A DNA stretch of 64,000 nt, from the NCBI RefSeq assembly GCF_000317045.1, contig NC_019703.1:2778501-2842500 (forward strand). Reading direction: 5' to 3'. Position numbers and translations under genes: made by a program. Shown here piece by piece: positions 14,829 through 48,070 of the stretch (the first letter of the stretch is position 1; each line of letters opens with the position of its first letter). The stretch comes from Geitlerinema sp. PCC 7407. Lineage in GTDB: Bacteria > Cyanobacteriota > Cyanobacteriia > PCC-7407. Under the pieces are notes generated by a model. It had not been told where the DNA came from and made no database searches. It saw only the letters and a program-made list of their open reading frames with translations.

Positions 14829-15004
14829 AGTCAACAGGAGCAGTCAGACAGTTGACCCCGATAGGTGGCTTTGTTGAAAACGCTGAATCCGTTAGCAGGC
14901 AAGGGAGACTTCTGTGCAGACACAGGGATAAGTCGCAAAACTTTTTGTTCTGGAACGTGAGCAACTAGAGTCTGCACAGCGCTAACAACCGTCTGAGACT
15001 AAAG

Positions 15005-15024
15005 AGGCGACCCGAAGGTCGCCT
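15005..15024 (-). terminator. Hairpin downstream of psbI
   Basis: AGGCGACC (15005-15012) and GGTCGCCT (15017-15024) form an 8-base stem with a tetraloop. Read on the minus strand it follows psbI by about 35 bases and is trailed by CTTTAGT, a weak T-run, consistent with a factor-independent terminator. Confidence 0.6.
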
Positions 15025-15058
15025 GTCCCATGACGCGATGCATGAGCTGGATCTTCGC

Positions 15059-19721: not shown

Positions 19722-20311
19722 AATTGCCCTACTCCGTGAACCTGGTTGTGCGCCGATAAATTCAGAATTACTTATCGACTAGTTCACTAAATCTTATCAC
19801 TGGATTTACGGATTCATTATTAAGTTATTTGTGCGATCGCCCCTTGATCGGGCTCAAACATCGACCTAAACACACCAAAGTCTTTACAGAGACTCAGGAG
19901 AAGCTGGCATCTAGCTGCATTTCGACCAGATTCTGAGCATCCGATTGAAGGGGCGATCGCTCCATGGGAGCAGCCTTTCGCTTGATCCCCACAGCCCCCA
20001 TTTCGGAGCGTTGCAATACGTAACGCTTATCGAGAATGGAAGCTTCGTGAACAAATGTAATGCCAACCCCCAAAAACACGGGGATTGGCAAAAGGCGATC
20101 GCTTAGAAATCCTGATTCTTCGGAGCGTTGAGATTCTTTTTGGCGACCATTACCGGTCAGATTCAAGCATGTTTTAAGGCGCAACGAGATTTTTATATAG
20201 AAATAGTTTTTTATAGTCACAACCCCATAAACCGCGCTTACGTCCATCAATGGCTAACAGTCACTGTCCATCCAACTGAGAACAGTCGCTGCTAGCCATT
20301 GCCCAGGAGAA
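19722..20311. other. 590-base spacer, no supported gene
   Basis: AT-rich around 19750-19830. It holds a 118-codon minus-strand frame (19894-20250) with an erratic amino-acid pattern and no recognisable domain; I do not accept it as a gene, though a short real gene inside it cannot be excluded. No strong inverted repeat was noticed. Confidence 0.35.
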
Positions 20312-23465: not shown

Positions 23466-24938
23466 ATGCGAGTCGCGATTGTTGGGGCGGGTCTAGCCGG
23501 GATGGCCACAGCCGTTGACCTAGTGGATGCAGGTCACGAGGTTGAAATTTTCGAATCTCGCCCCTTTGTGGGAGGCAAAGTTGGAAGCTGGGTTGACGCA
23601 GACGGCAATCACATCGAGATGGGTCTGCATGTCTTCTTTGGTTGCTATTACAACCTCTTTGAGCTGATGAAAAAAGTAGATGCGTTCCAGCATCTGCGCC
23701 TCAAGGAGCACACCCACACCTTTATCAATCGCGGCGGCGATGTGGGCGCCCTCGATTTTCGCTTCATCACGGGCGCGCCCTTCAACGGTCTCAAGGCTTT
23801 CTTCACCACGTCTCAGCTTTCCCTGGCAGACAAGGCGCAAAACGCGATCGCCCTCGGCATTAGCCCCCTGGTGCGCGGCCTCGTCGACTTTGACGGCGCC
23901 ATGAAAACGATCCGCGCCCTCGACCACATCAGCTTTGCGGACTGGTTCCGCCAGCATGGCGGCTCCGATGGCAGCCTCAAGCGGATGTGGAACCCGATCG
24001 CCTACGCCTTGGGCTTCATCGACACCGAAAATATTTCTGCCCGCTGCATGCTGACGATCTTTCAGTTCTTTGCGGCCAAAACCGAGGCGTCGATCCTGCG
24101 GATGCTGGAGGGCTCACCCGAGGAGTACCTGCACCGGCCCATCGTGAACTACCTGGAGGAGCGCGGCGGCAAGATCCACCTGCGACGCGGGGTGCGTCAG
24201 ATCCTGTTTGAGGGCGAAGGGGACCAAACCCAGGTGACCGGCCTGGTGGTGGCCAACGGCGACTCGACGGAGACGATCACGGCGGACGCCTATGTGTGCG
24301 CCTGCGACGTGCCGGGAATTCAGCGTCTGGTGCCCGATGCTTGGCGGCGCTGGTCTGAGTTTGACAATATTTTCAAGCTGGATACGGTGCCGGTGGCCAC
24401 GGTGCAGCTGCGCTTCGATGGCTGGGTGACGGAGATGCACGACGCCGCTCGTCGCCGCCAGCTGCAAGAGGCGGCAGGAATCGACAACTTGCTGTACACC
24501 CCGGATGCAGACTTCTCTTGCTTTGCAGATCTGGCGCTGACGAGCCCGGGCGACTACTATCGCGAGGGCCAAGGCTCGCTGATGCAGCTAGTGCTGACGC
24601 CGGGCGATCCGTTTATCAAGCAGAGCAATGAGGCGATCGCCCAGCACGTGCTCAAGCAGGTCCATGATCTGTTCCCGTCTTCGCGCGAGCTCAACATGAC
24701 CTGGTACAGCGTCGTGAAGCTGGCTCAGTCCCTCTACCGCGAAGGCCCCGGGATGGACCCCTACCGTCCCGACCAAAAAACGCCCATTGGCAATTTCTTC
24801 TTGGCGGGCAGCTACACCATGCAGGATTACATCGATAGCATGGAGGGGGCGACGATTTCTGGCCGCCAGGCGGCGAAGGCGATTCTGGGACACGCAGCCC
24901 AGCGCTCTTCGGTCAGCCAGCCGTCGGTTGTTGGCTAG
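23466..24938 (+). CDS. zds: 9,9'-di-cis-zeta-carotene desaturase
   Basis: 490 residues, normal for cyanobacterial CrtQ-2/Zds. Introduces two double bases into zeta-carotene to form lycopene isomers, a membrane-associated FAD step of carotenoid synthesis using plastoquinone as acceptor. The dinucleotide-binding motif [15 protein letters not shown] is at residues 5-19, followed by [14 protein letters not shown], and the C-terminal [20 protein letters not shown] is the carotenoid-oxidase FAD signature. It is followed 46 bases later by an SRPBCC gene, a pairing also seen in other cyanobacteria. Start ATG gives MRVAIVGAG. Confidence 0.96.
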
Positions 24939-24984: not shown

Positions 24985-25449
24985 ATGCCCGATTGGCTAG
25001 AACACAGCGTTCAAGTAGAAGTCGACACCCCCATTGATCTGGTGTGGGACCTCTGGTCTGACCTCGAGCAGATGCCCCGCTGGATGAAATGGATCGAGTC
25101 GGTCAAAGTGCTAGAAGACAACCCCGAGCTTTCGCGCTGGAAGCTCGCCTCTGGTGGGTTTGAGTTTAGCTGGCTCTCTCGCATCCTGAAAGTCACCCCC
25201 CACCAGATTATTCAGTGGGAGTCGGTGGACGGACTGCCCAATCGCGGGGCCATCCGCTTCTACGATCGCCACAACAGCAGCATCGTCAAACTGACGGTGG
25301 CCTACGCGATTCCCGGCGTTTTGGGCAAGCTGATGGACAACCTGTTCCTGGGCCGGATCGTCGAATCGACGATCCAGGCTGACCTAGAGCGCTTTCGCCA
25401 CTACGCGATGGAGGCTCAAGCTCAGAGCAACGCTCAAGACGTCGAGTAG
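24985..25449 (+). CDS. SRPBCC (START-like) protein linked to zds
   Basis: 154 residues with the SRPBCC/polyketide cyclase fold: VEVDTPIDLVWDLWSDLEQM at the start, MPRWMKWIESVKVLE, and a C-terminal amphipathic helix LGRIVESTIQADLERFRHYA. This fold makes a deep pocket for hydrophobic ligands. The start is the ATG giving MPDWLEHSVQVEV. The gene lies directly behind zds and a strong terminator follows it, so they form a two-gene unit. A role in carotenoid handling or thylakoid lipid contacts is inferred only from this context. Confidence 0.86.
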   Translation: MPDWLEHSVQVEVDTPIDLVWDLWSDLEQMPRWMKWIESVKVLEDNPELSRWKLASGGFEFSWLSRILKVTPHQIIQWESVDGLPNRGAIRFYDRHNSSIVKLTVAYAIPGVLGKLMDNLFLGRIVESTIQADLERFRHYAMEAQAQSNAQDVE

Positions 25450-25479
25450 TCTGTCTGGTTACTCGCTAGTCTTGACACA

Positions 25480-25512
25480 GCAATGGCTCGGGCGAAATGC
25501 CCGAGCCATTGC
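25480..25512. terminator. Strong intrinsic terminator after zds-SRPBCC
   Basis: A 14-base perfect stem, GCAATGGCTCGGGC (25480-25493) and GCCCGAGCCATTGC (25499-25512), with a 5-base loop, followed by TTTTTATT on the plus strand. It lies between the convergent SRPBCC and DUF928 genes and may serve both. Confidence 0.9.
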
Positions 25513-25556
25513 TTTTTATTCAGGATGCTTGGCTCAGGATGTTTCGGTGAACGTCA

Positions 25557-26342
25557 CTAGTTCCGAGCGCCGGCGCTCTGGCGCCGAGCCTGAGTGCTAT
25601 CACAGCAGGAAATAATCCGCTGATTCGCAAGCCGGCTGAGTCCTTGGGATCGCAGAAGGTCTGACCACTGCTCGGCGATCGCCTCATCGCGAGGATTATC
25701 CGCGCGCATCTTGGCCAAAGCCGCCACGAGATCGAACCAGTAGCCATTTTCGGCGTAGAGCTTTAGGCGATCGCTCTCTGACGCCGCCGCCAGCTGATCT
25801 GCTAGATCACCCTCAGGCGGCATGTAGCGCACCCAGCCAGACACCCGAATATCGCGTTCGCGATCCTCCGAATCACAGATCACCGACACCGTCCAAGTGT
25901 AGTACTGCCCCTTTTCAAGAGCGGGCATCGTTGTCCCACTGGGGAGCTTTAAGCTAGCAATTCCCGGCGTTCCAGAGGTTCCGAAAGTCGCCCGATAAAT
26001 GACATCCTTGCGCTGACGCTGCGCACCGACCGAATAAAGGGTAAACTCCGCCGTTTTGGTTTTGGTCGTGGGCATGTACCAGAAAAATCGCGGAAACGCT
26101 TCGCTGGTATAGCCAACATTATTGCTAGGGGACAGCGCCACTAGCTGAGGCAGTCGACCTTGCAAACATGCGGGACCTCGGGTACCACCACCGACCCGCC
26201 GCCCAGGAAGACCCACATCATCCGGAGCCTTAAAGCCAATTTCCGAGGCTAGGGATAGACTCGGAGCCATACAAATCGAAAGACTAAGAAGAGAGACCAA
26301 ACCGGCTCTCGCAATAGAAAAGTAGCGTTGTCTCCTGCGCAT
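25557..26342 (-). CDS. DUF928 secreted protein
   Basis: 261 residues from the ATG giving MRRRQRYFSIARAG; an ATG 18 codons upstream is also possible. A basic start and hydrophobic core (GLVSLLSLSICMAPSLSLAS) form a signal peptide, so the protein is exported. The mature part has the DUF928 pattern: RRVGGGTRGPAC, ALSPSNNVGYTSEAFPRFFW, and WVRYMPPEGDLADQLAAAS. DUF928 proteins are found mainly in cyanobacteria and sometimes sit beside CHAT or kinase genes; their role is unknown. It converges on the SRPBCC gene through a shared terminator. Confidence 0.86.
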   Translation of the reverse strand: MRRRQRYFSIARAGLVSLLSLSICMAPSLSLASEIGFKAPDDVGLPGRRVGGGTRGPACLQGRLPQLVALSPSNNVGYTSEAFPRFFWYMPTTKTKTAEFTLYSVGAQRQRKDVIYRATFGTSGTPGIASLKLPSGTTMPALEKGQYYTWTVSVICDSEDRERDIRVSGWVRYMPPEGDLADQLAAASESDRLKLYAENGYWFDLVAALAKMRADNPRDEAIAEQWSDLLRSQGLSRLANQRIISCCDSTQARRQSAGARN

Positions 26343-32730: not shown

Positions 32731-33151
32731 AGAAATCCGTACAAGCAGCACTGATCCCAGAATAAAGAGTTTCAGCCCGTTTCTGGAATTTTCGTCTCGT
32801 CTTCCCCTATCCCTTGGGGAGTCTGCACCCCTCTGGCCGAGTCGTTCCCCGATCCAATTTGGGTGGCCAACAGCGCTAATGGGGTCTTCGATGTCCTGAG
32901 CGGGAAGCGTTGTGCATCCCGGGAAAACCCCGGTCCAGGGGCGATCGCCCCGGTGAGGGACCGTATGGATTTGGGAGGTCAGCGATGCTGGGGGCTGAGG
33001 GAGGTGCCTGAAGCGGATGAGGGCACAGCTCAGCCCCCGAGTCACAGCCATTGCAGGCTGGCCTCCTGGAGTTGAAATCTTTAAATCCTTTTGTCTTGCC
33101 GCCTCTAGAAGGCCTTCGTTCAGCGCTCTAGATGGGGTCTAGGGGGCGACT
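32731..33151. other. 421-base structured spacer upstream of the M16 pair
   Basis: Contains several stacked inverted repeats: GGGGGCTGAG/CTCAGCCCCC (32990-32999 and 33029-33038) with GTGCC/GGCAC nested inside, a HIP1 palindrome GGGGCGATCGCCCC (32938-32951) flanked by GGTCC and GGACC (32932-32962), and a CCGGG/CCCGG pair just before it. No gene supported. The M16 promoter should be at the low-coordinate end. Confidence 0.5.
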
Positions 33152-33454
33152 CTACTGGTGGTGATGACCGGGGAGATACTGCTGGCGGTAGAACGTGTAG
33201 GAGTCGAAAAGGGCTCCCACCAAGCCGCAGGTCAGGCCAATGGTCAGCGCTCCGTGCAGCGGTTGACCGCTCCCAAAAACCGCCAAAAAGCTCAAAATCT
33301 GCTCACTAAGCAGCTGGCTAATGCCTCCGAGTCCCGGAACTGCAGTCAGCAGCGAGAGTCCTGCTAGGAGTCCTCCCAGCATCAGCAAGGGAACGACAAA
33401 CGCTAGCAGCATCGTCAGAAGGAGCGATCGCAGAAAACAGGGCAGATTGTTCAT
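33152..33454 (-). CDS. Small integral membrane protein
   Basis: 100 residues from the ATG giving MNNLPCFLRSLLL. Two or three membrane segments: SLLLTMLLAFVVPLLMLGGL and ALTIGLTCGLVGALFDSYTF, with a His-rich C-terminus (GHHHQ). I recognise the general pattern as a cyanobacterial small membrane protein but know no function. It is flanked by spacers of 320 bases or more and transcribed alone. Confidence 0.68.
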   Translation of the reverse strand: MNNLPCFLRSLLLTMLLAFVVPLLMLGGLLAGLSLLTAVPGLGGISQLLSEQILSFLAVFGSGQPLHGALTIGLTCGLVGALFDSYTFYRQQYLPGHHHQ

Positions 33455-33810
33455 AACAGAACGGAGCCGTGGTAGGACAAAGGCAGGCATCAGGAGCTTG
33501 CGTTGTCTCTACGATAGGAGCGATCGCCCTTGCTCATCAGCCCCCTTCAAGATTCTTAAATCATCCTTAAGATTCCTTCTTCAATTTTTGTGAAAAAATT
33601 TCTTTGCTGCCGCAACACTTGCAGCGCCCCAGCCCGATCGCTCAAGCTGCCCTCTCAGCAAAAGATCTGGCAAAATCTCAGTATTCTGGGGAAGCCCTGG
33701 CCAAACCTCCCTGGAGCGATCGCCAGCAAAGGCCAAAACACTTTGTTAGAAACTTCTCAGCATTCCCTCGCCATCTCACTGATTCTCACTGATTAGGTAG
33801 GTTACGCATC
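33455..33810. promoter_or_regulatory. Divergent spacer upstream of the MlaE gene
   Basis: 356 bases. AT-rich from 33540 to 33600. A 10-base tandem repeat, TCTCACTGAT twice (33774-33793), lies just before a TAGGTAGG Shine-Dalgarno and the TTG start of the permease gene. No gene supported. Confidence 0.4.
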
Positions 33811-38033: not shown

Positions 38034-38947
38034 CGCCCCTTCAAAGGGGGTTCGGCGGCGATCTGAGACCGCTCGCGAGGCATAAAGTCTTCGTATTTTG
38101 TTTGATCGAAGTGGTACACCGTGCGGATGGGGTACGGGATCACGATATTGGCGCGATCGCACGCCTGTTTGAGCGCGATCATGACCTGGGTACTGGTTCG
38201 CCGCACCACCACCTGCTGCGGCGTGGTCCAAAAACGCGCCATCAGGTCAACGGCGCTATCGCCAAAGGACACCACATCAATTTCAGGGGCTGGCTCTTCC
38301 AGGACGTCCTTGACGTTTTTGAGCGCTGAGAGCAGGGTCTCAATGGCCGTCGGCAGGGGCGTGTTGTAGTCCACCGAAATGGCCAGGTCGGTTCGCCGGT
38401 GCGGCAGCGCGGTGCGCACCTGCACCGGATTTGTAAACAGCAGCGAATTGGGCATGACCACGATTTCGCCGTCGTAGGTGCGAATGCGCGTCGCCCGAAT
38501 CTTGATTTCTTCGACCGTACCTTCGTAGCTGTTGATCACAATCTGGTCGCCGATCCGGAAGGGCTGCTGCAGCAGCAAAAGAATCCCGGCCAGAAAGTTT
38601 TTGAAGATGTCCTGGAACGCAAAACCGATCGCGACAGAACCCAGTCCCAACAGGCCAATGATGTCCCCCAAACCCAACCCCGGGAAGGCCACCACGCAGG
38701 ACGTCACGATCCCAACCACCCAGGCAGAAACATAGCTAATCTGGACCGCAAGCGATCGCAGCGATCGGTTTTGCAGGGCGCGATCGGCGGCCACTGCCAC
38801 AACTTGGCGCACCGCTTTGGCGGCGTAGCTGGTGATTGCCAAGATTGTCAAGGCCATCAGAATAGACGGCAGCAAGCGGATTCCTTCACCGACCAAGCCT
38901 AGCAAGCTGGCTTGAATCTCTTGAATCAGCGGGTTAGACGGATTCAT
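38030..38947 (-). CDS. mscS: MscS-type mechanosensitive ion channel
   Basis: 305 residues. Three to four membrane segments, then the MscS pore helix and beta domain: GLLGLGSVAIGFAFQDIFKN, FLAGILLLLQQPFRIGDQIV, EEIKIRATRIRTYDGEIVVM, PNSLLFTNPV. A C-terminal alpha/beta domain follows. It releases osmolytes on hypo-osmotic shock; a more specific role is unknown. The gene follows pheT in the same direction, but a 13-base inverted repeat and a terminator hairpin separate them, so it probably has its own promoter. Confidence 0.93.
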   Translation of the reverse strand: MNPSNPLIQEIQASLLGLVGEGIRLLPSILMALTILAITSYAAKAVRQVVAVAADRALQNRSLRSLAVQISYVSAWVVGIVTSCVVAFPGLGLGDIIGLLGLGSVAIGFAFQDIFKNFLAGILLLLQQPFRIGDQIVINSYEGTVEEIKIRATRIRTYDGEIVVMPNSLLFTNPVQVRTALPHRRTDLAISVDYNTPLPTAIETLLSALKNVKDVLEEPAPEIDVVSFGDSAVDLMARFWTTPQQVVVRRTSTQVMIALKQACDRANIVIPYPIRTVYHFDQTKYEDFMPRERSQIAAEPPLKGR

Positions 38948-38973
38948 GCTGGAGCCCTCAAAATCTGCATAAA

Positions 38974-39050
38974 AAGAGCGTTGACGGAGCGCTCTTCGGT
39001 GAAGTCAGGCTTGGAGCGTCAAACGAGGCTCTCTAACCCTGACTTCACCG
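38974..39050 (-). terminator. Terminator hairpin and large inverted repeat after pheT
   Basis: On the minus strand, AAGAGCG and CGCTCTT (38974-38980 and 38990-38996) form a 7-base stem followed by TTTAT, a plausible pheT terminator. Just upstream on that strand is a 13-base perfect inverted repeat with a 28-base loop (38997-39009 and 39038-39050), which would form a second larger stem. Confidence 0.55.
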
Positions 39051-39095
39051 TTAATTTTCTCCGAACCCCTTCTAGAGTAAGGGACTCTCTCGGAT

Positions 39096-41546
39096 CTAGC
39101 TGCGCAGGCTCACGCTGAACTTTTCGCTCAGCAGCTCCCGGACGCGCTGGTGCACTGGCTCCACGTCGGCCTCGGTCAGGGTGCGATCGCTCGCCCGGTA
39201 CACCAGCCGGAATGCCAGGCTCCGCTGCCCTGCGGGGACGCCTTCTCCCTGGTACTCGTCAAACAGCTCAGCAGACTCCAGCAGGTCTCCCCCGGCGCGG
39301 GCGATCGCCTTTTCCAGGTCCACTACGGACACCGCCAGCGGCGCGAAGAAAGCAATGTCGCGATCCGTCGCAGGATAGGACGAAAAGGGCTTAAACAAGG
39401 GCGTTAGCGCCTCATCGCGGCTCAGCTCACCCAAGAGCAAGTCCAGAGACAGGGTGAAAATATAGACGTCGTCCGGCAAATCGCGATCGCGCCGCAGCTG
39501 GGGATGCAGCTGGCCAAAGGTGCCCAGGCGCTCTCCGCGAATCCAGAGGGAGGCGGTTCGGCCCGGGTGCAGGCGACTATCCCGGCGATCGGGCTGATAT
39601 TCCACCTTGATGCCCAGGCGCTGGAAGGCGCTCTCCAGCAGGCCCTTGGCCTCGTACCAGTTCATGGGCTGTTCGCGACCAGAGCGCCGCCATCGGCCCA
39701 CCGAGGCATCACCGCCCATCACCCCCGCCAGAGCATCCATTTCATGGAATCCCAGGTCGTCCTGCCAGAACACACGGCCAATCTCAAAGGCGTTGAGCGG
39801 CCCGTTGCCCTGCTCCAAGTTGTACTGGAAGGCGTCAACCAGGCCCTCGATCAGCTCTGTCCGCAGGGCTGAGTATTCGGCGAAGAGGGGATTGGCAAGG
39901 GTAACTTGGGATTCGTGAACCGGTTTAACCAGGGAGTAGTGCATCAGCTCCGTCAGGCCAACCCCGCGAAACGCCGCGCGCAGCGATCGCGTCAGTTCCT
40001 GCTCGAGGGACAGATAGCCCGCTTCGCTCTTGTCCGGCAGGGTCTCGCAAAACTTGTCATAGCCGTAGAGGCGCGCCACTTCTTCGATCAGGTCGATTTC
40101 TCGCTCGAGATCGCGGTACCGGTAGGGAGGCACCGTCACGCTCCACACGTCCTTGCGATCCGTCGGCTGGACTTGGCAGCCCAGGGCGGTCAGGCTGCGC
40201 TCGACTTCCTGGGGCTGCAGCTCGCGCGGGTCGGCGTCCTCCACCTCCACAAGACCCAGCACCTGGTTGACGCGCTCTAGGCGCAGCTCGATGGAGCGGG
40301 TCCAGGTGGCCTGGCTGGGACGACTATCGGCGATCGCCTGGGCAACCACGGTCCCGCCCGCCAGATCCAGCAGGAGGGCCAAGGCGCGACGAGCCGCCAC
40401 CTCCAGTTCTGCCTGGTTGACGCCTCGCTCGTAGCGGGTCGAAGCCTCAGTGCGCAGACCCTGGCTCCGAGCCGATCGCCGGATCGCCACAGAGTCAAAC
40501 AAGGCCGCCTCAAGGACGAGGTTGGTCGTGCCCCCGTGCACCTCGGTGTCTTCGCCGCCCATCACCCCCGCCAGCGCAACAGGGCGATCGTTTGCCGTGA
40601 TGACCAGAGACTGGTTTTGCAGCTTGCGCTTTTGGCTGTCCAGGGTCGTGAGGCTTTCATCGGAACGGCCAAACCGGACGCCCAGGGTCAAAGCACCGGC
40701 TCCGGCTACCTGCTGGAGGCGATCGCGATCGAAGGCGTGCAGCGGCTGCCCCCACTCCAGTAGCACATAGTTGGTGACATCCACCACATTATTAATAGGG
40801 CGCACCCCCGCCGCCTGAAGGCGCCGCTTGAGCCACTCAGGGGACGGCTGAATGTTGACATTTTCAATCATCGTGCCGATGTAGGCCGGACAGGCCTTCG
40901 GCTCCTGGACCTGCACCGCCAATTTCGACGCGTCCTCGGGCTGAGCGATCGCCTCCAAGTCTGCCCCCGGCAGCCGCAGCGTCGCTCCCGTCAGCGCAGC
41001 CACCTCTCGAGCCACCCCGACCATGCTCAAGGCGTCCGCTCGGTTGGCCGTCGACGTCAAGTCCAGCACCACATCCTCGAGGCCCAGCAGCGGCCGCACA
41101 TCGGCTCCCGGCTGCAGTCCCGCCTCACCAAAGATGTGAATGCCCTCCGAGTCTTTTTCTAGACCCACCTCAGACAGCGAACAAATCATTCCCTCTGAGC
41201 GCACTCCCCGCAGCTTGGTCGGCCGCAGCTTCAGGTCGATCGCCGGCAGATAGGTGCCCACCGTCGCCACCGCTACATAGATGTCCGCTCGGACATTGGC
41301 AGCCCCGCACACAATATTTAGCGGGCCGCTCTCCGCCCCGACATCGACCTGGCAAACGCTGAGCTTGTCCGCGTTGGGGTGCTGCTCTCGGCTCAGCACC
41401 TTACCAACCACAACGCCATCAGCCCAGGTGCGCCGGTCTTCAATATCCTCCACCTCAAAGCCCGCCATCGTCAGCGTTTCGGCCAACGCCTCCGGGGAGA
41501 GAGAGATGTCTACGAGTTCTTGTAGCCAGTTTAGGGAAATACGCAT
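39096..41546 (-). CDS. pheT: Phenylalanyl-tRNA synthetase beta subunit
   Basis: 816 residues, the length typical of bacterial PheT. Joins with PheS as an alpha2-beta2 enzyme charging tRNA-Phe. Domains in order: core start [14 protein letters not shown], tRNA-binding OB fold (about 40-150: [35 protein letters not shown]), B3/B4 editing domain ([40 protein letters not shown]), B5 domain, catalytic-like domain ([18 protein letters not shown]), and the C-terminal ferredoxin-fold anticodon-binding domain ([20 protein letters not shown]). The ATG giving MRISLNWL is preferred to an upstream in-frame codon. pheS is not adjacent. Confidence 0.97.
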
Positions 41547-45783: not shown

Positions 45784-46296
45784 TCAAGCTCGGGGAAGAG
45801 GCTCGGGGGAAGTTTGCAGATGGGTCAACAGGCCTTCGCAGGCATCCGCGAGCAGATCCAGAACTTTGTTGAAGCCTTCGGGACCGCCATAGTAAGGATC
45901 AGGGACGGACCGAGCCTTGGAATGGGTACAAAAATCACACATCAAGCGCACTTTGTGCCGGTATTGACCTTGAGGATCGAGGCGCAGGATATCGTCGTAG
46001 TTGTCTTCGTCCATGGCCAAGATCCAGTCGAAGTGCTCGAAGTCGGAGCGCTGAAACTGACGGGCCGCTCCCTGCATAGGAATTCCGCGCTGGCGAGCTG
46101 CCAGGGTCATGCGGCGATCGGGGGGGTCGCCGATGTGGTAGCCCGATGTGCCAGCCGAATCACAGGTGATGCGATCGCTCAGGCCCTGGGCTTCGATCAG
46201 GTGATTCATTAAATTTTCGGCGGCGGGCGATCGGCAGATATTGCCAAGACAGACAAACAGCAGCTTGATCGGAGGAGTAGCGTTTGGGGAAGACAT
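45784..46296 (-). CDS. Low-molecular-weight protein-tyrosine phosphatase
   Basis: 170 residues, about the usual 155 plus a short N-terminal extension. P-loop VCLGNICRSPAAE has the nucleophile Cys16 and Arg22 (CX5R), and the general-acid loop VPDPYYGG is present near residue 134. It dephosphorylates phosphotyrosine or low-molecular-weight arsenate/acyl phosphates; in cyanobacteria such enzymes (SynPTP-type) act on photosystem or phycobilisome-linked proteins in vitro, but the target here is unknown. It is convergent with the response regulator gene. Confidence 0.94.
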   Translation of the reverse strand: MSSPNATPPIKLLFVCLGNICRSPAAENLMNHLIEAQGLSDRITCDSAGTSGYHIGDPPDRRMTLAARQRGIPMQGAARQFQRSDFEHFDWILAMDEDNYDDILRLDPQGQYRHKVRLMCDFCTHSKARSVPDPYYGGPEGFNKVLDLLADACEGLLTHLQTSPEPLPRA

Positions 46297-46708
46297 AGCA
46301 ACCAGGACTGAAACAACCAGGCAAAGGGCGATCGCCCGCCACCCACTTCAGCAATTTTAGGGGAGGACCTCAAGAATCACGCGAGGCCCCGCAAAGAGGC
46401 GATCGCAGTTTCCGGGTCAGCCAAGATTCTGCGTGCAAACTTTATCGGATTCCCATGGCAGCCTACAATGGCTGTCGTCTGACTTCCGTTGGCAGATCCA
46501 GACTCGCTCAAACCCCCGTAGCCCCCAGCCGTTTCTGGGAAAGCGGTTTGAGCCCCTGGAATTTCCATTCAGTCGCGGTGTAGGCCCCGAAGACCTACAC
46601 GGTGCGATCGCGCGAAATCCCGACCGAGCGACCTTTCTCTCAACCGCCGTCGCCACCCTGCGGGAGCTGCCCGGCCCTATTCCTAAAACTGTTCGAGGAC
46701 ACGTTTGA
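46297..46708. other. 412-base spacer between the phosphatase and SGNH genes
   Basis: Divergent spacer, so both promoters must lie here. It also contains the hairpin cluster listed as a candidate RNA. A 92-codon plus-strand frame (46433-46708) ends right at the SGNH gene but has no recognisable domain, and its central part coincides with the hairpins, so I do not support it. Confidence 0.4.
46475..46600 (+). ncRNA. Candidate structured RNA
   Basis: Three neat stems are packed in about 100 bases: outer GCTCAAACC (46506-46514) with GGTTTGAGC (46545-46553); inner CCCAG/CTGGG (46524-46528 and 46535-46539); and a separate GTGTAGG/CCTACAC hairpin (46578-46584 and 46594-46600). A TACAAT -10-like word lies at 46463-46468 with a poor -35. 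The ends are not defined. Strand is assumed from the -10 word. It does not look like 6S RNA, tmRNA, SRP RNA or RNase P RNA. Confidence 0.33.
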
Positions 46709-48070
46709 ATGTTTAAGTCCAGCCGTCGGTTCTATCGCCAGAAACAGCGTCGCGTTTCGAGTCCCATGATTGCGCTTCTGGCTATTCCCCTGGCGCTCAT
46801 CGTGCTGGAAGTGGCGATGCGAGCGATCGCCATCGTGACCAACCAACAAGCCGACATCGCCGCCTACGAAGGGGAAGCGCAAATCGTCACGGCCTACCGT
46901 CTCAAGTTTTTTGGCGCCGATCGCCAGCCCTACGACGGCTTCCCCAGTCGAGGTCGCCTCGTCGCCACCCGCAAATCCCTCCTCGGCTACGAGCTCGCCA
47001 GCAACCAGCAAACCAGCTTCTGGAAAATCAACGAACAAGGGTTTCGAGCCGACGCCCCCCTCCCGCTTGCCAAACCCAAAGGCGAATTTCGGATCTTTGT
47101 CCTCGGAGGCTCCACCGCCTTTGGCCAGCTCAGCTCCAATAACCGCACCACCTTTGCCAGCAAACTCGAGACCCTCCTCAACGACCGAGTCGCCCAGCAA
47201 AAGAGCAACCCCGAGCGGTTTCGGCCCGACGTCCTGCCCTATTTCAAAGAAGAAGTCGACAAAGTCCTCGCCCGTCCTGCGCGCATCCGAGACGGCAAAT
47301 ATCGCGTGATCAATGCCGCTGTTCCCGGCTATGCCTCCGGCAACGAGCTGACCCAGCTCATGCTGCAAGTGGCAGCCTACAAGCCCGACATGCTGATCGT
47401 CGTCGATGGCTACACCGATCTCACCTTGCCCAGCGACCAGATGGGCGCTGACATTCCCGGCACCGACGACCTGCTGGAGAACGCGCCCCACCACCTCTAC
47501 CAGAACATCACCCAAGACATTAGTACCTGGGTACGGCAGCTTTACCTGATCAAAGGCACCCAGTACTGGCTCTTGAGACCCCAGCAGTCAGCCGCTCAAA
47601 CCAACTTGGTTACCGGCGACCAGCAGTCCCTCGCAGAGCAGATCGTGTCAGCCGACGCCGAGGAGATGAAAAAGCGCTTCGATCGCTATCGCCAAAACGT
47701 TCAGCAAATGGCGAACTACGCCACAGCAGCCAAAATCCCCATCATTTTGGCCCTCCAGCCTGAAATTACTGGGCGCAAATCCAAGCTGCTAGCTCCCGAG
47801 CAGGCGATCTTGCAGCAGCTCGGCCCTACTTATCGCGATCGCATCACCCAGGGATACACCGCCCTTGAGCAGCAGGCCAAGCAAGTCCAGCAGGGCAAGC
47901 CCAACGTGCGCGTGCTCAACCTCTATGGCCTATATGCAGACTTTCCCGGTCAGGCCTTCCACGACACCATCCACCTGACCGACGAAGCCAATACCGTATT
48001 GGCCGACCAGCTATACACCTCGGTCACCAGCTTCTTGCAAATTCAGCCGAGGCCCTCGCTGGAGCCCTAG
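46709..48070 (+). CDS. SGNH/GDSL-hydrolase family membrane-anchored protein
   Basis: 453 residues. An N-terminal membrane anchor (MIALLAIPLALIVLEVAMRA) follows a basic start, so the catalytic part faces the periplasm. SGNH motifs: nucleophile Ser in FVLGGSTAFGQL, the Gly/Asn block VPGYASGNELTQLML, and the catalytic pair in FHDTIHLTDEANTVLAD. Such enzymes hydrolyse esters or move acyl groups on carbohydrates; the substrate is unknown. The Shine-Dalgarno GAGGA is 9 bases upstream. It precedes the atpD gene by 254 bases. Confidence 0.88.
   Translation: MFKSSRRFYRQKQRRVSSPMIALLAIPLALIVLEVAMRAIAIVTNQQADIAAYEGEAQIVTAYRLKFFGADRQPYDGFPSRGRLVATRKSLLGYELASNQQTSFWKINEQGFRADAPLPLAKPKGEFRIFVLGGSTAFGQLSSNNRTTFASKLETLLNDRVAQQKSNPERFRPDVLPYFKEEVDKVLARPARIRDGKYRVINAAVPGYASGNELTQLMLQVAAYKPDMLIVVDGYTDLTLPSDQMGADIPGTDDLLENAPHHLYQNITQDISTWVRQLYLIKGTQYWLLRPQQSAAQTNLVTGDQQSLAEQIVSADAEEMKKRFDRYRQNVQQMANYATAAKIPIILALQPEITGRKSKLLAPEQAILQQLGPTYRDRITQGYTALEQQAKQVQQGKPNVRVLNLYGLYADFPGQAFHDTIHLTDEANTVLADQLYTSVTSFLQIQPRPSLEP

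Follow-up and report, generated by a model that had tools for sequence, protein, structure and literature searches.

Yfr1, Yfr2 and 6S RNA are small RNAs of cyanobacteria, and together with the structured 5′ leaders of bacterial mRNAs they are the systems against which we compare a cluster of hairpins in the genome of Geitlerinema sp. PCC 7407 (4,681,111 bases, single contig), where it lies within the 64-kb stretch of DNA that was analysed, here called the window. The hairpins exist, and no functional feature is established by them. The best explanation, which we consider slightly better than an even call, is a lineage-specific cluster of inverted repeats lacking a dedicated, conserved RNA function.

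The cluster occupies a 412-nt spacer (46297–46708), and its placement in the original prediction, between a phosphatase and an SGNH gene, agrees with the Pfam matches and open reading frames. To the left is a low-molecular-weight protein tyrosine phosphatase gene (45784–46296, minus strand; ORF of 170 aa; PF01451, E 2.3e-45), and to the right an SGNH/GDSL hydrolase gene (46709–48070, plus strand; PF00657, E 2.2e-07). Being transcribed in opposite directions, both genes turn their 5′ sides to the spacer. A comparison of leaders placed the Shine-Dalgarno-like site of the SGNH gene, GAGGA, at 46695–46699 on the plus strand. The spacer also holds three GCGATCGC palindromes, which we take to be the cyanobacterial motif HIP1.

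An exact stem search recovered the three perfect hairpins as they had been predicted. In the outer 9-bp stem, GCTCAAACC (46506–46514) pairs with GGTTTGAGC (46545–46553) across 30 nt, and this stem encloses a 5-bp stem formed by CCCAG (46524–46528) and CTGGG (46535–46539). The 7-bp stem, GTGTAGG (46578–46584) with CCTACAC (46594–46600), begins 24 bases past the outer one. RNA folding places the 9-bp and 5-bp stems within a long stem-loop at 46490–46567 and the 7-bp stem within a further one at 46572–46608, which on the minus strand extends to 10 pairs, G-U included. Folds of 46437–46577 and 46443–46610 add a stem-loop beyond the original prediction, at 46446–46488, with CGGA/TCCG outer pairs and a CAGCC/GGCTG core. 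On the plus strand, 46446–46608 is thereby folded as three stem-loops in tandem (about 163 nt), the last of which ends about 100 nt before the SGNH ATG.

Dinucleotide shuffles of the 412-nt spacer (3000) showed a stem 9 bp or longer (loop 3–40) in 5.4% of cases; in 1.4%, such a stem and a separate one of 7 bp or longer both fell within 150 nt. Folding energies were compared with shuffles over intervals chosen post hoc, after inspection of the sequence. With 1000 shuffles, the interval originally predicted (46475–46620) gave z −2.24 on the plus and −3.52 on the minus strand (21 and 1 shuffles as good), and similar values were obtained for 46470–46610 (−2.40 with 11 as good, plus; −3.59 with 1 as good, minus) and for the third hairpin alone at 46570–46610 (−2.14 with 31 as good, plus; −3.35 with 1 as good, minus). 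For 46437–46577 z was −3.94 (plus) and −3.60 (minus), with 1 shuffle as good on each strand; the plus-strand value shifts with the shuffle set (−3.16 with 40, −4.85 with 100, −4.08 with 200), and the one from 1000 shuffles is relied on. The three-domain interval 46443–46610 reached −4.10 (plus) and −3.84 (minus), none of 200 shuffles being as good on either strand, and the whole spacer only −1.23 and −1.81. The excess of folding over shuffles is moderate, and as the two strands fold about equally well, the strand of a transcript is not indicated.

The same comparison across the window puts this excess in context. The window contains 26 perfect stems of 9 bp or longer, where 30 shuffles average 8.7. 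In 11 cases, against 2.6 in the shuffles, such a stem and a separate one of 7 bp or longer fall within 150 nt, so that hairpins are generally more frequent in the window than in its shuffles. When the places with at least two hairpins of 7 bp or more per 150 nt are ordered by total stem length, the cluster comes within the first 20 of 52, ties being possible. Fixed-grid scans of the window (40 shuffles each) gave z of −3 or lower in 16 of 680 intervals on the plus strand and 21 of 913 on the minus strand. Among mostly intergenic intervals, a set defined by greedy ORF picks with two short ORFs added and not by an annotation, the counts were 6 of 115 (plus) and 12 of 150 (minus), and the hairpin spacer ranked 6th and 12th. 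Measured against the window's intergenic intervals, the cluster stands out at a level of a few per cent. The earlier view that its density is unusual for random spacer holds against shuffles of the spacer itself (the 1.4% given above), and is tempered by comparable or stronger folds in other spacers of the window. As it stands, the cluster serves mainly as a calibration, such a density of hairpins not being rare in these spacers.

Judged by eye, the remaining intergenic spots with z of −3 or lower lie in tandem or convergent spacers, in which terminators are to be expected, except for one in the divergent spacer 33052–33810. In that spacer, 33391–33531 folds strongly on the minus strand (z −4.0), comparably to the hairpin cluster. 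At 25381–25621, between convergent ORFs, a 15-bp perfect stem (25479–25493/25499–25513) accompanies z of −5.6 (plus) and −6.7 (minus) in the grid scans, and these hairpins are probably a two-way terminator. Between two minus-strand ORFs, 38917–39131 (z −6.2, plus; −4.4, minus) holds a 13-bp stem at 38997–39009/39038–39050. Two further places are without an Rfam match: 14911–15051 (z −6.2, minus), in a spacer that separates two minus-strand ORFs by about 730 nt, and 19835–20301, with several strong folds (z to −5.5, plus, and −5.1, minus) in the roughly 1.2 kb that lie between called ORFs.

Known elements were sought at the locus. None of the 4227 families of Rfam release 15 matched the 64-kb window at or above its gathering score (covariance models), in keeping with the original prediction, which had found the cluster to fit none of the RNA families that it named (6S, tmRNA, SRP, RNase P, Yfr1); a lenient search of 46297–46760, to E 5, returned a single, clearly spurious match, at E 4.4 and scoring 12.2 bits where the cut-off is 38. 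A tRNA or tmRNA was rejected, none being present in the window. An intrinsic terminator was likewise rejected: because the phosphatase (minus) and SGNH (plus) genes diverge, both being transcribed away from the spacer, the hairpins are not 3′-end terminators of either, and no terminator-like site falls on them. Two such sites were found in 46200–46900 against 1.1 expected, both on the minus strand and off the hairpins (46318–46338 and 46380–46393), and no run of T follows the last stem on the plus strand. No sigma-70-like promoter was found in 46200–46900, which is a weak point, since only 0.2 was expected by chance and other promoter types lie outside the scan.

A dispersed palindromic repeat or MITE was rejected, as blastn and exact stem patterns gave one copy in the genome; neither arm pair occurs a second time there (spacings N10–40 and N3–15, no mismatch allowed), and a plasmid collection gave no match to the cluster. 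As regards an insertion, a repeat search revealed no direct repeat flanking 46446–46608 on both sides without a gap. Short direct repeats, D2 (the GCGATCGC palindrome) and D5, bracket that interval at a distance. A limited literature search returned only papers on other subjects.

Relatives of the cluster were searched for in genomes of the class, in a collection that has no other genome of the order and no close genome. Blastn of 46300–46720 against 96 class genomes (own included; up to seven first-look candidates scored per genome) gave no relative of the hairpins; besides itself, the query had two matches of 33 and 24 nt, corresponding to 46309–46341 and 46328–46351, outside the hairpins. 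Under stricter filters, a covariance model of the minus-strand core (118 nt; up to 18 candidates per genome) found only the window itself in 194 genomes, and one of the plus-strand three-domain fold (163 nt; up to seven candidates per genome) found only the window itself in 388. Against 38 loci of SGNH orthologs (L022 included, L016 excluded) and the window, searched to E 10, the minus-strand model matched further at L009 (E 0.45) and at 23696–23777 of the window (E 0.86), and the plus-strand model matched nowhere else. Both models were built on one sequence, so that diverged relatives would be missed; for this reason, and because no close genome was available and only part of the candidates was scored, the absence of relatives is weakly informative.

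The upstream regions of the SGNH orthologs allow a comparison by position. Of 388 genomes of the class, own included, 112 have an SGNH relative with E 1e-60 or better; only the best 30 places among these contributed loci, some of which were already in the set, and the leaders of 37 loci in all were read. Two partial matches (L016 and L022) were excluded from leader reading, leader z and the counts of phosphatase orientation, and one locus counts twice among the 37 because L021 and L025 share an identical leader. The GAGGA site and the first codons are common to many of these leaders. When the spacer was compared by sensitive blastn with the DNA upstream in 38 loci (own included), the matches elsewhere were only 11–24 nt long (best E 0.061, L009). 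The phosphatase is divergent to the SGNH gene in six of the 37 other loci (L003, L004, L005, L006, L026 and L028), with SGNH proteins 50–58% identical. Their spacers measure 217–356 nt from the tblastn edge, a figure that would shrink by as much as about 25 nt with a phosphatase start lying further out, and our 412-nt spacer is longer than these six by 56–195 nt or a little more. This extra length as a sign of insertion is suggestive only.

The hairpin cluster was not seen in any of the six orthologous divergent spacers, whose best z ranges from 0.36 to −2.40 on the plus and from 0.00 to −2.04 on the minus strand, eight of the twelve strand bests lying above −1.1. Over the 230 nt upstream of the SGNH gene, in 36 loci (own included; L021 and L025 have too little upstream DNA), the mean z was −0.89, lowered by L012 and L014 (about −7) and by L013 and L015 (about −3); the closest orthologs, L003–L005, gave 0.01 to 1.30 and our locus −1.54. 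An alignment of five spacers was reliable only among L003–L005 and near the ATG. The spacers of these three are well conserved over about 200 nt, and their folds are not clearly ahead of those of shuffles (best z −1.04); this suggests a conserved promoter or leader sequence. The low values of L012 and L014 come from extremely stable structures at about positions 1250–1480 of these loci, upstream of SGNH relatives of another family (z about −7), which follow an ORF of glyoxalase-like look (by eye) and are unrelated to the hairpins of the window.

Several of these results are consistent with inverted repeats that would have no dedicated, conserved RNA function and would lie in a promoter region common to the two divergent genes: the spacer is divergent, the cluster is present once in the genome, Rfam is without a match, neither blastn nor structure models detected relatives in the genomes searched, the orthologous divergent spacers reach no z below −2.40, and other intergenic spots of the window fold comparably or more strongly. 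We infer that the cluster probably has no selected function. Against it stand the three-domain fold, better than all 200 shuffles on both strands, the 1 in 1000 shuffles as good as 46437–46577 on each of the two strands, or as the third hairpin by itself on the minus strand, the length of the spacer relative to its six counterparts and the limited weight of absent relatives. The usual cause of intergenic hairpins is moreover not applicable, since a divergent spacer needs no terminators. If the cluster is transcribed, it would most probably be within the 5′ leader of the SGNH mRNA, where three stem-loops would have at most an effect on stability or translation.

The original prediction, that the cluster may be an unknown small RNA or a structured leader of the SGNH gene, is supported only by the energy of folding. 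A leader on the plus strand whose three stem-loops influence the stability or expression of the SGNH mRNA in this lineage appears rather unlikely: the plus-strand fold of 46443–46610 into three separate domains and the clear SGNH start with its GAGGA site argue for it, but the structure is absent from six orthologous divergent spacers despite the similarity of the SGNH proteins, the minus strand folds about as well and, as a weak point, the promoter scan was empty.

That the cluster might constitute an RNA family of its own, with the three tandem stem-loops of about 163 nt gained in the spacer of this lineage and serving either as a small RNA that acts in trans or as a dedicated regulatory switch within the SGNH leader, seems distinctly unlikely. 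Should the cluster prove real, it would add another orphan structured leader or small RNA, beside a phosphatase/hydrolase pair in a cyanobacterium that has no close relatives in the collection. We give little credence to an independent small RNA, from either strand and of unknown family: the compact fold of both strands and the room in the spacer for its own transcript would suit one, but there is no Rfam match, no relative in 388 class genomes (own included), no T run past the last stem on the plus strand and, weakly, no promoter-like site.

It is equally doubtful that the arms act at the level of DNA, as operators or palindromes bound by a regulator (GTGTAGG-N9-CCTACAC and GCTCAAACC-N30-GGTTTGAGC) that would control one or both divergent promoters. 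Their position within a divergent promoter region and their perfect palindromic arms point that way, but each arm pair occurs once in the genome, which is ill-suited to a regulator of many targets and still allows degenerate or local sites, and a gap of 30 nt between arms is long for a dimer site. Lastly, a mechanical ORF of 91 aa (46433–46708, plus strand) runs through the hairpins and stops immediately ahead of the SGNH ATG; its codon score (0.040 per codon) does not decide, because it falls inside the spread both of gene chunks (median 0.190, 5th percentile −0.260) and of false frames (median −0.204, 95th percentile 0.074). This ORF is probably not a gene, and that the hairpins belong to a small protein-coding gene is very improbable: the frame is open across the entire cluster, but it has no Pfam match up to E 1 and no relative among 58 other genomes searched, and its last codons carry the SGNH ribosome-binding site.

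Preferring inverted repeats devoid of a dedicated, conserved RNA function, we return to the known systems. The cluster resembles structured bacterial mRNA 5′ leaders in that its stem-loops stand in a spacer ahead of a gene whose Shine-Dalgarno-like site is clear, but differs from them in that no conservation was found and neither a ligand nor a family is known for it. With the cyanobacterial small RNAs Yfr1, Yfr2 and 6S RNA it differs in its failure to reach the gathering score of any Rfam family, and what it shares with them is the form of a short, hairpin-rich intergenic stretch.
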